A stretch of 64,000 nt of DNA, taken from Arthrobacter sp. PAMC 25486. GTDB taxonomy: Bacteria; Actinomycetota; Actinomycetes; Actinomycetales; Micrococcaceae. This document shows, in pieces, positions 1-4,929 of this stretch (position 1 is the stretch's first letter; the number at the start of each line of letters is the position of its first letter). Position numbers and translations under genes: made by a program. A model generated the notes under the pieces. That model searched no databases. It worked only from the letters and a program-made list of their open reading frames with translations, and was not told the origin of the DNA. Location: NCBI RefSeq assembly GCF_000785535.1, contig NZ_CP007595.1:2006439-2070438 (forward strand). Direction: 5' to 3'.

Positions 1-1878
1 GCTGTTCGTGCCGGCGGCGCGAGCCTGCGGGCCACCGCCGAAGCGACCGGGGTTTCCACCGATACGGTCCGTCGCGCCATGGCCACCACGACAGAAACCC
101 CGGCAACTGAATCTACCCACGATTCTGTAGCACCCCTTGAAGCAGCGGAACAGCCTGTGCTGCCGGCCCCGGTGGCCCGTAACGGGGAGCGGGCAGCGGC
201 ACGGGCCGGGCTCCTTGAATGCGCGGCACCGGCGTTCGCCCCGGCCACCCGTGTTCGCCATGCCGGACTGTTCCTGGCGTTCCCGGCACTGGAAGCCACG
301 GGCCTGCTCAGCAGCGCCAAAGCCGTGTATTCGGCGCTGCCGAATGGGTTTTACGGCCTCGAAACCGTCCTGGTCGATGCCGTGTTGCGGGCGTTGGCCG
401 GGGAAGCCCGGGCCGAGGGAGCCACCCGCTTTGACCCGGTGGAGCTCGGGCGGGTGTTGGGGTTGGATCGGTCCCCGGAAGTGAAAACGATCCGCCTCCG
501 GATCATCCAGCTGGCCGAAACGGGCAAAGCCGGGGAATTGATCGCCGCCCTGGCCAAACACCTCCTGGCCGGCACCGGCCCTGGTGGGGAGGACCTGGCC
601 GCGATCCTCTATGTTGACGGGCATGTGCGCGCCTACCAAGGCACGAAGAAGATCGGGAAACTCTACTCCACGAGGTTGAAGTTCCCGGTCCCGGCGACCG
701 AGGAAACCTGGGTCACCGACGCTAATGGTGCCCCCGTCTTCGTCGTCATGGCCGCACCCGGTGCGTCCCTGGCCGCCGAACTGCGCGACCTCCTGCCCGA
801 ACTCCGTGCTGCTGTTGGGGATGACCGGCGCGTGTTGGTCGGCTTCGATAGGGGTGGCTGGTCACCGGCGTTGTTCAAGCACATGCATGCGGCTGGTTTT
901 GATGTGCTTACCTGGCGCAAAGGCACCACCAACGACATCACCGAAGATCTCTTCAAGGAGGCCACCTTCACCGAGGAGCACGGTGAAGAGAGGACCTGGT
1001 CGATTGCTGACACGCTCGTTGACCTGCCCCTGGCAACGACCAAGACCAGCGGGGAGGTCTTTGAGATCCGGCAGATCAGCCGGATCGTGGGCACCACCGG
1101 CAGCGGGACGAGGCAAATCCACATCCTCACCACCGATACGACCATGAGTGCCGGGGAGGTCGTGTATCGAATGGGGAACAGGTGGCGGCAGGAGAACCAG
1201 TTCCGCTACGCCCGCATGCACTTCGAGCTCGACTCCCACGATTCCTACACCAGCACCGGTGACAATGAGGAACGGATGGTGCCGAACCCTGCCAAGGCCA
1301 AGGCCTACCAAAAAGTCGTCGCCGCCCGCAATGCCCACACCGAGGCCGCTGCGATCGCCGAGACGAACCTGATGGCGCTGAAAACCCCGGCAGAAGGCTC
1401 CACGGAACTGGCCGTCACGGTCACCAGTGACATGCACAACCAGGCCATGGCACCGCTCTGGGAAGCCGAAAACGCATTGATCGCGGCGGAGAAGGCCCAC
1501 AAAGCCATCCCTGCAAAACTCCGTCTCGGGGAGTTGAACCCGGGCCAGCAGGTCCTGGATACCGAGGTGAAACTGATCCATACCGGCATCCGCATGGCCG
1601 CCTACAACACCGCGATGACCATCGCCAGGGAGATCCGCACCAACACCGGCTACCGGCGTGCCAGCCAGGAAGCCCACGCTCTCATGCGTCAGATCTTCAA
1701 CCAGCCCGGCGACATCGACACCACCAAGCCCGGCGTCCTGACCATCAGCCTGGACCCGCTGCCCACCAAGGCCAAAACAGCGGCCGCTGCCCAGCTCTGC
1801 GAGCACCTGAACAGCGCTGAAACTCGCTACCCCGGCACCGCGCTCATCCTGAGCTACAAAATCAAGAACAACGCCTAA
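1..1878 (+). CDS. DDE transposase-like protein, 5' end cut by window edge
   Basis: The reading frame is open from base 1. The first ATG at 79 is not the likely start, because in-frame codons before it encode a helix-turn-helix-like stretch (ASLRATAEATGVSTDTVRRA). Counted from that ATG there are 599 residues. An RNase H-like catalytic triad can be proposed: D180 (YVDGH), D257 (GFDRGG) and E372 in RWRQENQFRY, the last resembling the W..EN.F.Y signature of IS4/IS1634-type transposases. A helical region follows the third acid. The likely role is cut-and-paste transposition of an insertion sequence, or a domesticated relative. Terminal inverted repeats could not be assigned because the left end lies outside the window. 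It sits at the outer edge of the ychF-linked accessory patch. Family assignment rests on motifs only. Confidence 0.6.
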   Translation, partial: AVRAGGASLRATAEATGVSTDTVRRAMATTTETPATESTHDSVAPLEAAEQPVLPAPVARNGERAAARAGLLECAAPAFAPATRVRHAGLFLAFPALEATGLLSSAKAVYSALPNGFYGLETVLVDAVLRALAGEARAEGATRFDPVELGRVLGLDRSPEVKTIRLRIIQLAETGKAGELIAALAKHLLAGTGPGGEDLAAILYVDGHVRAYQGTKKIGKLYSTRLKFPVPATEETWVTDANGAPVFVVMAAPGASLAAELRDLLPELRAAVGDDRRVLVGFDRGGWSPALFKHMHAAGFDVLTWRKGTTNDITEDLFKEATFTEEHGEERTWSIADTLVDLPLATTKTSGEVFEIRQISRIVGTTGSGTRQIHILTTDTTMSAGEVVYRMGNRWRQENQFRYARMHFELDSHDSYTSTGDNEERMVPNPAKAKAYQKVVAARNAHTEAAAIAETNLMALKTPAEGSTELAVTVTSDMHNQAMAPLWEAENALIAAEKAHKAIPAKLRLGELNPGQQVLDTEVKLIHTGIRMAAYNTAMTIAREIRTNTGYRRASQEAHALMRQIFNQPGDIDTTKPGVLTISLDPLPTKAKTAAAAQLCEHLNSAETRYPGTALILSYKIKNNA

Positions 1879-1927
1879 CGACCCACAGCAATTACCTCAC
1901 CATGACCGGAGTCCTGGAGATAGAAAA

Positions 1928-1964
1928 ATCCCCCAAGTGCGCATCGTGGAGAGGCGTGGGGGAT
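1928..1964. terminator. inverted repeat downstream of transposase-like gene
   Basis: Arms atccccca (1928-1935) and tgggggat (1957-1964) are perfectly complementary around a 21-nt loop, 50 nt after the stop codon. It could be a factor-independent terminator without a clear T-tract, or part of an insertion-sequence end. The rest of 1879-2217 holds only repeat D and no convincing gene. Confidence 0.35.
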
Positions 1965-2010
1965 GTAGTGGGTTGAGTATATCACTAGCGGCCGCCAGTG
2001 GGACGGCCAA

Positions 2011-2071
2011 GCATCGGATCAGAGCTCAACTACACATTGAATCTAAACTCCACCGCATTCCTGCACATACC
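2011..2071 (-). repeat. ychF-3'-end-like repeat, copy D
   Basis: Read on the minus strand, this copy encodes GMCRNAVEFRFNV followed by a stop; the last seven residues equal the YchF C-terminus (VEFRFNV). The 41-bp core (2031-2071) aligns without gaps to copies C and B. By hand count about 30/41 positions match C and 29/41 match B. The 20 bp on the left also match C at 12/20, and every mismatch there is a transition. It is the outermost visible copy of the array. Confidence 0.7.
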
Positions 2072-2217
2072 AACCTCTACCCAGGCCACTCGTGATCGCA
2101 ACCCCAGGTCGCCGACCGCGTCCCTCCCAATCGTCCCACCAGCACGCTATCCAGGACGTCTTATTCGCGACAGCTGGGACCATCGAATGTCGGGCCCGAA
2201 CCTGTGTTCGGCATGGA

Positions 2218-2724
2218 TCATGCGGATGGGCCCGTTCTCGGCAATGACGTCACCAACCGAAGGGTCCTCGTCCATAGCGGGCGCTTTGCAGGAACCTCCG
2301 GCGGATTACCTACCTCGGATTCAGCTCGGTCAAAGCTCTCCTCGATGAGAGCGTCATGGAGCGGCCGAAAGAAGAGAGGCCAAGTCACCCTCGCCGGCCC
2401 CGTGACGGTCATCATCAATTCATGCGTGAGCAACACAGTTGCCTCATCCGCAGTCTCCGAAACAGTAAATGCGTGATAGCCATGAAACCCCGATGGGCCA
2501 GTGAATTGGAAGCTTACGGATCGCCCTGGCTCATACGCATCCACCACATAGCGCACAGGCCCGTGCCCTCCAGATGCGCCGATACCAAGCGGTCTGTCCA
2601 GTCTCATCGACGGCCATTGTCCACGGGGCCACAACCGGTCATGCTTAGTCGACAAGGAGTCCAGCAAGTCTCCGACCGATTCAGCGCTCGCACGGACGTA
2701 TCGCTGATGAACGTTCTGGATCAT
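2218..2724 (-). CDS. SRPBCC-family protein (polyketide cyclase/START-like)
   Basis: A 168-residue protein with the pattern of the SRPBCC/START-like fold. Residues 1-30 resemble the usual opening strand and helices, GPVRYVVDAYEPGRSVSFQF is typical of the central sheet (V..Y.PG..v.F.f.GP.G), and the C-terminal helix runs through LFFRPLHDALIEESFDRAE. Members bind small hydrophobic ligands; the ligand here cannot be predicted. The start is ATG without a clear Shine-Dalgarno. It lies alone between repeats D and C, in the same orientation as ychF, which suggests it arrived as a one-gene module. Confidence 0.7.
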   Translation of the reverse strand: MIQNVHQRYVRASAESVGDLLDSLSTKHDRLWPRGQWPSMRLDRPLGIGASGGHGPVRYVVDAYEPGRSVSFQFTGPSGFHGYHAFTVSETADEATVLLTHELMMTVTGPARVTWPLFFRPLHDALIEESFDRAESEVGNPPEVPAKRPLWTRTLRLVTSLPRTGPSA

Positions 2725-2815
2725 GTTCTGAGACTAACAATAGGATCACCGGACGACTATGGTTACGAGCACCGAACGACGGATCAAGGTTGCACAGATG
2801 GTTTCGTGGGCCGAG

Positions 2816-2876
2816 ACGTTAGATCAGAATTTAATTACACATAGAAACGGAATTCAACCACGTCGCCGCACATACC
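2816..2876 (-). repeat. ychF-3'-end-like repeat, copy C
   Basis: On the minus strand this copy ends an open frame with [13 protein letters not shown] and a stop, against [13 protein letters not shown] in YchF. Resemblance may reach further into the preceding residues (GKVTVQREPGMC versus [14 protein letters not shown]). The core is 2836-2876. About 26 of the first 33 core positions match the real ychF end. It lies between the SRPBCC and HXXEE genes. Confidence 0.7.
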
Positions 2877-2910
2877 CGGCTCACGTTGGACGGTCACCTT
2901 GCCGTTACGG

Positions 2911-3399
2911 TCAGTTCCTGGCAGTAGGAGCTCTACGGACCAAGCGTGCGACCACATGGCACACCAGCGCGGCAGGGAGGAGCATAGCAACTCCGTTGAC
3001 CGTGTCACGGAACTGCAAGCTGACGCCATCCCGGTAAAGTTCGCGACGCGCGACGAGCGCCCCGGGCAACATCACCGGCAGTGCCGAAGCAACACCCGCG
3101 GTGTATCCACGCTGTGCAATCGAAGCGATTAGGTGAGACGCGACGTGGGCTTCCAGTCCGGCGGCAACGGCCCGATACATTTTCGACTTGCCGCCCGTAC
3201 GCACGCCACGGCCACAAGCCGCCGCTACGAGGGTCCCCATCAGAGCAACAGCCATCCATGACTGGTGAGGCGTGATCCTGAGCTGTTTTATACCCGTGCG
3301 GTCGACGAGTCGATCGCTGGTTGCAGGGAACGCGAATGCTTCCTCAATGTCGTGGATAAACCATGCCGTAAAAAGGGCAATCGGACCCTTCCAACTCAC
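2911..3399 (-). CDS. HXXEE-domain membrane protein
   Basis: A 162-residue protein with the HXXEE signature as HDIEE at residues 16-20 (FTAWFIHDIEEAFAFP), the hallmark of Pfam family HXXEE. At least three hydrophobic segments are visible: around residues 5-15, 48-62 (WMAVALMGTLVAAAC) and 136-150. The family is predicted to be an integral membrane group with a conserved H/E cluster, possibly metal binding; its function is not known to me. The start is GTG with GAAGGGAG about 9 nt upstream. It is the single gene between repeats C and B and is co-oriented with ychF. Confidence 0.7.
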   Translation of the reverse strand: MSWKGPIALFTAWFIHDIEEAFAFPATSDRLVDRTGIKQLRITPHQSWMAVALMGTLVAAACGRGVRTGGKSKMYRAVAAGLEAHVASHLIASIAQRGYTAGVASALPVMLPGALVARRELYRDGVSLQFRDTVNGVAMLLPAALVCHVVARLVRRAPTARN

Positions 3400-3509
3400 A
3401 AATCAGCGCTCCCTTCGCGCGTCCAGCTGGGACTGAATTTGCCGGTAGACGCGTGTGTTCACATACATCGTTTCATAACAAGCGCGGCTATTCAGCACGG
3501 GTCACCAAG

Positions 3510-3570
3510 ACGTTGAACGGGAACTCAATAACACATTGAATCTCAATTCGACCATCTAGTCGCACAAACC
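3510..3570 (-). repeat. ychF-3'-end-like repeat, copy B (most decayed)
   Basis: The minus-strand reading gives GLCD, a stop, then MVELRFNV. This matches copies C and D residue by residue but with an internal TAG and without the terminal stop. The core is 3530-3570. The 3' side gcacaaacc matches gcacatacc of C and D and is absent from ychF itself. Confidence 0.65.
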
Positions 3571-3784
3571 AACCCCTCGCGGCGTGCGGTTTCCAGCGAC
3601 GCCGTTTCCTACTGCCAGACATCTGAATGCCTCGGGCTTCACAGAACGAGAAGCTATTGCGCAATCCGCGCGGTCGCTCCCGAACGGCAAAGACCTCCGG
3701 TGGCCATCAGTCCAGATTCCAGGACGATCCCTTATCCCCAGCGCTGCTTGTACATTCGCCATGGACGTCTTGACATCAGGTACA
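3571..3784. other. short module between repeat B and ychF terminator; no convincing gene
   Basis: About 210 bp lie between repeat B and the ychF terminator. A 68-codon minus-strand frame (3556-3762) crosses it, but it ends inside repeat B, matches nothing I recognise and is arginine/proline rich like a chance frame. It may be a gene remnant or an attachment-site arm. Confidence 0.3.
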
Positions 3785-3820
3785 GAAATGCCCGGAATAC
3801 CAAAGCATTCCGGGCATTTC
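3785..3820 (-). terminator. ychF terminator hairpin
   Basis: Perfect 14-bp arms gaaatgcccggaat / attccgggcatttc enclose an 8-nt loop, starting 24 bp after the ychF stop. It is strong enough to serve in both directions. It separates ychF from the inserted modules. Confidence 0.75.
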
Positions 3821-3843
3821 TTACGGCCTAGACCGAAGCGATT

Positions 3844-4929
3844 CTAAACATTAAATCTAAATTCCACCACGTCGCCGTCGTGCATGACGTATTCCTTGCC
3901 TTCAATGCGCACCTTGCCCTTGGCCTTCGCCTCGTGCATGGAACCGGCCTCCATGAGGTCATCGAAGTGGACAACTTCGGCCTTGATGAAACCGCGCTGG
4001 AAGTCGGTATGGATGACGCCGGCAGCCTGCGGGGCGGTGTCGCCCCGGTGAATGGTCCAGGCGCGAGTTTCCTTCGGGCCGGCCGTCAAATAGGTCTGCA
4101 AGCCCAGGGTGTGGAAGCCGACACGCGCCAGCTGGTCCAAGCCAGACTCTTCCTGGCCGCTCATCTCCAGCATTTCGCGGGCCTCGTCCTCGTCCAACTC
4201 AACGAGGTCGGACTCCAACTTGGCGTCAAGGAAGATCGCGTCGGCCGGGGCCACCAGTTCCCGCAGCTCGGCTTGGCGCTCAGGGTTGCCGAGAACGGCG
4301 TCGTCAACGTTGAACACGTAGATGAACGGCTTGGCGGTGAGCAGGCCGAGCTCCTGCAGGTGCTCCATCTCCAGCTTGTCACTCTTGATGGAGGAGAAAA
4401 TGGTGTCGCCGCGCTCAAGGACCTTCTGGGCAGCCAGCATGGCGTTCAGTTCTGCGGCCTCTCGCTGCTTGAGCTTGACGGCCTTTTCAACACGCGGGAT
4501 GGCCTTTTCAATGGTCTGCATGTCGGCCAGGATCAGCTCGGTGTTGATGGTCTCCATGTCGGAGCGGGGATCAACCTTGCCGTCAACGTGCACCACATCG
4601 GGGTCGTCAAACACGCGGATGACCTGGGCGATCGCCTCGGCCTCGCGGATGTTGGCCAGGAACTTGTTGCCCAGGCCTTCACCTTCCGAGGCACCCTTGA
4701 CGATGCCTGCAATGTCCACGAAGGACACCACGGCAGGCAGCAGGCGCTGGGATCCAAAGATCTTGGCCAGCTGTGCCAAACGGGGATCGGGCAGGCTGAC
4801 AACACCAACGTTGGGCTCGATCGTGGCGAACGGGTAGTTCGCTGCGAGCACGTTGTTGCGTGTCAGTGCGTTGAAAAGGGTTGATTTGCCGACGTTGGGC
4901 AGTCCGACGATGCCAATAGTAAGAGCCAC
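3844..4929 (-). CDS. ychF: redox-regulated ATPase YchF (Obg-family P-loop protein)
   Basis: A 361-residue P-loop ATPase of the Obg/TRAFAC group. It binds ribosomes and nucleic acid, and in other bacteria it damps oxidative-stress responses. The G1 loop GLPNVGKST is at residues 9-17, and DIAGIVKGA (around 72-80) is the G3 region. The G4 position reads NVDD instead of NKxD, as expected for YchF proteins that prefer ATP. A coiled-coil insertion lies around 130-170 and a TGS domain fills the C-terminus, ending in the invariant EFRFNV. Length equals the family norm. The GTG start lies 8 nt after a TAGAAT box, so the message is probably leaderless. Its 3' end is the template for the repeats downstream. 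Confidence 0.97.
3845..3885 (-). repeat. ychF 3' end, the intact copy A of the repeat
   Basis: This is the genuine C-terminal coding end of ychF ([12 protein letters not shown] plus stop). Its first ~33 bp match copies C and D at about 26/33 and 25/33. Homology stops where the element-specific gcacatacc begins in the other copies, which fits a chromosomal attachment core restored by an incoming element. Confidence 0.6.

Follow-up and report, generated by a model that had tools for sequence, protein, structure and literature searches.

The ychF locus of Arthrobacter sp. PAMC 25486

We analyzed the 3' end of the gene ychF in Arthrobacter sp. PAMC 25486 (genome G000), where copies of the gene end recur downstream of the intact gene, set apart by unrelated small cassettes. 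The arrangement probably reflects repeated integration at this gene end by a large serine recombinase (LSR). The window, a stretch of 64,000 nucleotides (G000:C1:2,006,439-2,070,438), contains ychF, its current end, three displaced copies of that end and the genes between them (Table 1). Labels beginning with G denote genomes and those beginning with L individual loci or contigs; coordinates refer to the window unless a genome position is stated. A ychF query matched in all 98 genomes (G000 and 97 relatives), mostly over its full length.

Table 1. Features of the ychF end and adjoining array in the window.
Feature	Position	Strand	Basis or remark
ychF, 361 amino acids	3844..4929	-	Open reading frame (ORF); host gene and integration target
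Current attachment site (final ychF codons and stop)	3844..3893	-	
Native ychF end, GAA TTT AGA TTT AAT GTT TAG	within 3844..3893	-	
Approximate crossover interval of the ychF-end site, GGTGGA (positions 0 to +5)	3863..3868	-	Linkage profile of homologous cassettes
Hairpin directly after ychF, 15-bp arms, terminator-like by appearance	3784..3821	.	Inverted repeat
Displaced site 1, eroded coding (MVELRFNVL)	3529..3578	-	
Cassette gene, HXXEE-domain protein, 162 amino acids	2911..3399	-	Pfam PF13787, E 2.4e-12
Displaced site 2, VVEFRFYV-stop	2835..2884	-	
Cassette gene, SRPBCC/polyketide-cyclase-like, 168 amino acids	2218..2724	-	PF10604, E 0.002, below the Pfam cut-off
Displaced site 3, cassette-type left half AGAGGTTGGTATGTGCAGGAA, intact AVEFRFNV-stop	2030..2079	-	
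Transposase_29 insertion sequence (IS) gene	1..1878	+	PF21804, E 1.6e-55 for 79-1878

The three segments and the ychF end form repeat families with spacings of 805, 694 and 315 bp. Over 57 nt, the displaced copies agree with one another at 38, 42 and 39 positions, and with the ychF end at 33, 28 and 29. A 50-nt query of the ychF end returned the three segments as its top three matches within 1879-3800 (29, 27 and 26 of 50). In 2000 order-1 shuffles the third-best match never reached 26, and the best match equaled 29 twice (2/2000); one window copy alone is therefore marginal, and the set of three is not a product of chance. An earlier interpretation of the window, hereafter the sequence-only reading, had described the segments as repeats of the ychF end, oriented like the gene and sharing a gcaca(t/a)acc flank that ychF lacks. 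The alignments and shuffles bear this out, and the flank belongs to the cassette-type half of the site described below.

The array of three proposed in that reading holds within the window, but its true extent is larger. Six further displaced copies, one of them weak (E 3e-4), lie to the left of the window as far as genome position 1,992,511; three were recovered by a search of the genome itself and the others by scanning a 59.9 kb stretch. The G000 array thus comprises 10 sites from 1,992,511 to 2,010,331 (17.8 kb), one native and nine displaced, three of the latter within the window, and all 10 share the orientation of ychF. The copies had also been regarded as decayed, along a gradient that showed them to be old. 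The first point needs correction, and no gradient outward from ychF was found. An intact (V/A)VEFRFNV-stop is still encoded by 5 of the 9 displaced copies, which are therefore not simply decayed. The best profile match is the farthest copy (E 2.3e-18), and the worst, besides the weak distal one, is the copy nearest ychF (1.3e-8). In G000 the GC content of the final 24 nt of ychF is 25%, compared with 60% for the whole gene, and we read this 3' end as cassette-supplied.

Distribution of the site in actinobacteria

Sequence downstream of ychF was fetched for 80 of the 97 relatives, with 17 left out, and was combined with G000 and three database records into 84 regions. A site profile built from 63 copies, one of them native, was used to scan these regions, including those from which the copies came. 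It matched 207 times on the ychF strand and once on the opposite strand (E<0.01). At least one displaced copy was found in 51 of 81 genomes, G000 included, for a total of 131 copies; the remaining 30 genomes have none, and the most in one stretch is 10 (G026). The arrays were covered to about 18 kb downstream or to the contig end, so that the copy numbers are lower bounds. Arrays at ychF are thus common among the relatives of PAMC 25486 and not a local oddity.

An exact-pattern scan of the genome_contigs collection yielded 74 stretches, all in records with actinobacterial titles, with the genera Demequina, Arthrobacter, Kocuria, Brevibacterium, Brachybacterium, Nocardia, Cellulomonas, Microbacterium, Cryobacterium, Acidipropionibacterium and Dietzia among them; the pattern was derived from actinobacterial sites and says little on other phyla. 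These 74 loci were turned to their majority strand, and in all 29 that have ychF in view every site lies on its strand. Over 158 regions (2.10 Mb), the profile gave 391 matches with none on the opposite strand at E<=0.01, and 399 with 2 at E<=0.05. Shuffled copies of the same regions gave none at E<=0.01.

Whole genomes, 25 in number, were scanned with a sequence-only model of the site, scoring 150 first-look candidates per genome. The scan returned 92 matches in 23 genomes, 90 of which lie within about 23 kb of ychF. One of the other two is weak and elsewhere, and one is on the second replicon of G015. On this 385-kb replicon, the final 94 ychF codons are present and finish in a site-like end (G015:C2:218693-218974; L361), a possible plasmid-borne landing site.

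When the typed site was searched against phage and plasmid collections, 44 and 12 records matched, respectively, and five were fetched. At least 80% of the site was covered in one record only, that of Nocardia farcinica in the plasmid collection. Two records titled 'Bacteriophage sp.', L083 (MT836021) and L085 (MT838115), look by eye like bacterial chromosome, with ychF, ispH-like and rmuC-like genes; a third, L084, was scanned for the site only. One pattern search of viral sequences for the site returned 0 matches with a pattern that was too strict.

Native and displaced sites

Sites were classed as native or displaced according to whether they end a ychF reading frame, which gave 104 native and 293 displaced sites, or 100 and 281 after deduplication. 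Both counts are given because the G and L sets overlap (seven contigs were judged identical by length; G029/L283 was checked). In codon pattern, free wobble positions included, the right half of the displaced copies is like the native ends, and VEFRFNV-stop is intact in 174 of the 293 (167 of 281 deduplicated). Their left half is unlike ychF and has the consensus AGRGGTTNNTCNGNNNCGGAAC. A displaced copy therefore represents the junction of a cassette end with an earlier end of ychF. The last arginine codon of ychF is the rare AGA or AGG in 27 of 77 loci with displaced copies versus 0 of 27 without (Fisher p 8e-5, a value that overstates independence since the loci are related by descent).

The ACGTT motif of the right half reappears in the left half, 5 bp farther from the center. 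Among 17 shifts tried, 5 scored best, in displaced and in native sites alike. As described in PMC3783163, the attB and attP half-sites of LSRs differ in the position of the zinc-ribbon motif, which is shifted by 5 bp. The shift of ACGTT supports an LSR as the putative enzyme.

Empty site and register

In G017, ychF is directly followed by the native flank and then by a convergent gene, which we take to be SCO1664-like. This is the kind of empty site that the sequence-only reading had suggested looking for among relatives. The native flank was located in 23 loci: in 6 it follows the native end, in 16 it follows a displaced copy (G029 and L283, counted among these, are one contig), and in one, G008, it is out of register. 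The register is kept within -4 to +1 nt in 22 of the 23. In G000 itself, the native flank follows the tenth and farthest site, in the same register.

Copies located beyond the native flank or beyond neighboring genes were seen in G014, G015, G018, G019, G021, G059, L244 and L289, and in G026 at 15.7-17.3 kb downstream of ychF. The native genes at these loci were perhaps moved as a block.

Crossover and cassette mobility

The cassettes of 250-6000 bp number 230, with a median length of 1,184 bp; the 192 unique ones under 3 kb have a median of 1,136 bp. The crossover was mapped by comparing homologous cassettes with differing neighbors for identity above background. Such identity sets in near position +6 where the cassettes begin (409 pairs), and where they end it fades beyond about -1 (71 pairs); both pair counts overstate independence since the cassettes are related by descent. 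These limits place the exchange roughly in positions 0 to +5, GGTGGA, which is the center of the inverted repeat CGGAAC-GTGGTGGA-GTTCCG. The register of the empty site and a crossover inside the site both uphold the earlier proposal of repeated site-specific integration at the 3' end of ychF with displacement of the older end.

The same cassette was found between unrelated flanks in two Arthrobacter (L265 and L267; 96.5% identity over 809 bp) and, at 88.8% over 1,194 bp, in G002 and Gulosibacter (L282). A block of three cassettes is 98.6-99.5% identical between an Agrococcus metagenome-assembled genome and Gulosibacter. Judged from these sequence pairs, the cassettes are mobile, also across genera.

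Large serine recombinases beside the site

LSR genes lie beside the site in L370, in Brevibacterium L274 and L299 (the latter B. casei), and in L414, L415 and L416, and partial LSR genes in L260, L270, L271, L288 and G086. In all 11 loci measured, the start codon of the LSR gene is 22-42 nt from the core and within about 20 nt of the left half. L370 is an IMG/VR contig, phage-like by reading of its other ORFs, in which the site sits between a tyrosine integrase gene and the LSR gene. Further LSRs of the family occur directly after ychF (L419, L422, L427) or about 11 kb downstream (G053). The four LSRs scanned contain the Resolvase and Recombinase domains (PF00239 and PF07508), the L370 protein matches solved structures of LSRs and resolvases, and seven aligned relatives are 41-65% identical to it. 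An IMG/VR search for relatives of the L370 tyrosine integrase and LSR returned only L370 itself.

The LSR-like genes of L270, L271, L260 and L288 match the N-terminal and a later part of the profile with little between, alike in several genera, and represent either a shorter form of LSR or decay common to them.

Seven of the eleven loci (L299, L260, L270, L271, L288, G086 and L274) have the same left half to within 2 of 20 bases; it is a common cassette left half, from which those of L370 and L414-L416 differ. With at most 2 mismatches in 20, the left half of the L299 LSR locus recurs in 81 of 294 displaced sites (74 after deduplication), and 74 of the 81 (67 after deduplication) lie in stretches where no LSR was detected; that of L274 was matched by 35 displaced sites. 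By this comparison, the L299- and L274-type LSRs would fit better as the cassette enzyme than the LSR of L370. No LSR was detected beside the sites of most arrays scanned.

Other recombinases and other origins

That a phage-type tyrosine integrase targeting the 3' end of ychF built the arrays is improbable, even though such enzymes do occur there. Among 30 relatives fetched for the L370 tyrosine integrase, five directly adjoin the ychF 3' end, the gene for the L370 enzyme also ends close by the site, and smaller tyrosine integrases lie beside ychF ends in the IMG/VR contigs L365, L367 and L372. However, four of the five elements have an apparent second att repeat with nothing but TTCCGCTTCAACGT in common with ychF, which places their crossover farther right than that of the cassettes, and the same four are without the cassette left half. 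The fifth, G370, has no second copy of the repeat within 40 kb. Moreover, a tyrosine-integrase profile that recovered all 33 of its control loci gave no match at E<=0.01 across the 1.53 Mb examined downstream of ychF, nor any at E<=0.1 in the 74 genome_contigs loci. A ychF-adjacent tyrosine integrase was accordingly rejected as the probable cassette enzyme, given the different crossover block TTCCGCTTCAACGT and the exchange of the cassettes farther left.

In L375, L380, L381, L383 and L391 the tyrosine integrase gene lies right against the 3' end of ychF, and the crossover apparently falls in CCGCTTC. The same ychF end is apparently targeted by two classes of recombinase. The integrases of L365, L367 and L372 are separate and small (about 250 amino acids) and adjoin a ychF-type end; they are perhaps a third recombinase lineage at ychF.

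We regard it as less probable still that host XerC/XerD, which serve some phages at dif, also act on the end of ychF. At least two PF00589 matches were found in every genome searched, and the array genomes G046, G048, G100 and G105 have only two, XerC/D-like by score. Against this, the distance between the site and an adjoining LSR gene varies little, and the ychF-end site does not resemble dif; a dif-like pattern had no match in the genome of PAMC 25486, so that dif itself was not located there.

We give very little credence to a true integron, with an IntI-type recombinase acting on folded single-stranded attC. The form of the arrays, their small and mixed cargo and the self-pairing consensus recall such a system, but no tyrosine recombinase was detected in the arrays scanned, the crossover falls at the center of the dyad, in or near GGTGGA, and not at an attC-type GTTRRRY, and the right half of the site is ychF coding sequence. 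Finally, an origin of the copies by tandem duplication in place or by chance likeness, which could be entertained from the moderate likeness of the window copies to the gene end (28-33 of 57) and the 2/2000 shuffles that equaled the best of them, is refuted by the cross-genome register and linkage tests. The copies are also set apart by unrelated cassettes, are found in many actinobacteria and share a left half foreign to ychF, and shuffles gave no profile matches.

Proposed mechanism

We propose that an LSR system repeatedly integrated mostly recombinase-less cassettes into a self-regenerating ychF end, a reading to which we assign a probability of roughly three in four. The 3' end of ychF would serve as the attachment site. 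The site on an incoming circular element would have, as its right half, the final codons of ychF (GAGTTCCGCTTCAACGTNTAG and synonyms) and, as its left half, a motif of the element itself, with the consensus given above. Recombination in the shared center GTGGTGGA, between the CGGAAC and GTTCCG arms, would give ychF the right half of the element as its new end and join the left half of the element to the old, displaced end. The new end would again be a full target, so that elements stack with the newest beside ychF. Some elements encode an LSR beside their left half; most cassettes have no detected recombinase and presumably depended on an LSR acting in trans, supplied by a phage or by a different ychF element. 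The window array would be a recombinase-less remnant of this kind. The sequences directly show the stacking, the common orientation, the register of the empty site, an approximate interval for the crossover and LSR genes adjacent to the site, whereas LSR catalysis, circular intermediates, movement in trans and any benefit of the cargo are inferred.

Several observations weigh against this mechanism. The linkage profile is noisy, with single-position excess up to about 0.15 outside the limits in small subsets. Copies beyond the native flank in several loci are not predicted by simple stacking. Native and displaced sites have the same mixed layout, which is unusual; a classical LSR requires attP and attB to differ. 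Coding conservation also acts on the right half and weakens motif arguments that draw on it. The left halves of L414-L416 are a loose fit to the cassette motif, and that of L370 is matched by 0 of 294 displaced sites (at most 2 of 20 mismatched), so that the L370 LSR need not be the enzyme. LSR genes or remnants lie beside only a handful of about 290 displaced sites. A recombinase to accompany the array, which the sequence-only reading had suggested seeking, was not found in G000: the LSR search gave no match there at E<=1e-30, and the PF00239 and PF00589 matches, among those listed, are about 140 kb or more from ychF. G046, with 4 displaced copies, has no PF00239 match and only the two XerC/D-like tyrosine recombinases. 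Most cassettes were therefore probably moved by an enzyme encoded elsewhere or since lost.

Cargo and possible significance

Moving away from ychF, the modules of the window are a 315-bp stretch without a clear gene, the HXXEE gene and the SRPBCC-like gene. The next module contains an Abi_2-like gene and is split by two Transposase_29-type ISs, one of which was scanned by Pfam; the two adjoin (window 1-1878; L035 12541-14820), and we read the one in the window as a later insertion inside the module. Farther modules carry, from the ORF list, an exonuclease/BRCT-like gene, LeuA-like and GntR-like regulator genes, and an MFS transporter with a glycosidase. Names in G000 outside the Pfam-scanned ORFs come from reading the sequences by eye. 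The LeuA-like and GntR-like genes (L035 5180-6994 and 7152-7835) lie between two displaced sites.

Across the arrays, cassette ORFs were picked by a crude codon-bias rule, and 120 of 186 proteins were scanned. Among the 25 of 77 Pfam families listed, helix-turn-helix, AAA_33, AAA_18, PIN, GNAT acetyltransferase and glyoxalase were the commonest; families represented by two members include Zeta toxin and an adenylyltransferase family. A HigA-type antitoxin, named by eye, seems to be a recurrent cassette. A PADLOC scan of the same 120 proteins gave 84 families, and the 25 listed had one member each. Of the 186 cassette genes, 100 have one orientation and 86 the other.

Tentatively, at odds that we would put somewhat below even, Actinomycetota might possess an integron-like platform for gene capture built without integron parts, in which a serine recombinase lineage uses the ychF end as a permanent, self-regenerating entry and LSR-free cassettes are inserted, excised and reordered in trans. 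As cassette and host sites share one asymmetric layout, with an attP-type distance on the left and an attB-type distance on the right, the reaction may be symmetric and reversible. If so, a large phylum in which integrons are, to our knowledge, scarce would have its own means to gather small accessory genes, among them toxin-antitoxin, acetyltransferase and glyoxalase-like genes, and to shuffle them; such genes may be of use to the host. The ychF end would then be a fixed address at which to look up variable genes in thousands of genomes, and the loci would offer a natural set of LSRs and sites for the study of target choice and regeneration by serine integrases. The last codons of annotated ychF genes would often belong to a mobile element.

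Comparison with known systems

A literature search found no report of actinobacterial ychF cassettes; several of its queries had other aims, and preprints and most subscription papers were outside its scope. The main text of a large LSR survey does not contain the term 'ychF' (PMC10083194). Pneumococcal prophages adjoin ychF. The kind of mechanism proposed here is already known, the closest precedents being the Dehalococcoides ssrA islands and the Enterococcus cassette chromosome.

Integrons, and clusters of attC sites lacking an integron integrase (CALIN), are ordered arrays of small cassettes with toxin-antitoxin and GNAT-like cargo, often without a nearby recombinase. The ychF arrays resemble them in being ordered, small, similar in cargo and often recombinase-less. 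They differ in that no IntI was seen and there is no attI or attC, in carrying genes in both orientations, and in using a housekeeping gene's own end as the platform. Integrative and conjugative elements with tyrosine integrases, such as ICESt1, are large elements that also accrete in tandem by site-specific recombination; accretion is alike, whereas recombinase class and element size differ. The staphylococcal cassette chromosome mec (SCCmec) inserts at rlmH/orfX. From this type the ychF cassettes differ in their target, in their much smaller units and in having up to 10 displaced copies per stretch.

The likeness to the cassette chromosomes lies in LSR adjacency, insertion at a gene 3' end and direct-repeat att sites. 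In the Enterococcus cassette chromosome, Ccr LSRs drive insertion at the 3' end of a conserved gene, with direct-repeat att sites and, in some genomes, multiple attR (PMC6222049). The ssrA islands are tandem elements downstream of a conserved gene, with direct repeats of its 3' end and a CcrB-like LSR, DsiB, whose gene adjoins one att; the motif beside each repeat is conserved and unlike the gene (PMC3146451). Fifteen islands are without an integration module and sixteen have a six-gene module, with reductive dehalogenase genes as frequent cargo (PMC3146451). The ychF cassettes share with the islands tandem accretion at a gene 3' end, an LSR by att and module-less members. The islands target a transfer-messenger RNA gene in one genus, whereas the ychF cassettes target a protein gene, have a median of about 1.1 kb and occur in many actinobacterial genera. 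Of the features of 3'-end accretion in both precedents, restoration of the gene end and a displaced direct repeat are both found at ychF, and an LSR beside att is found at a minority of ychF loci. The target, the breadth, the cassette size and the mostly LSR-free arrays appear new.

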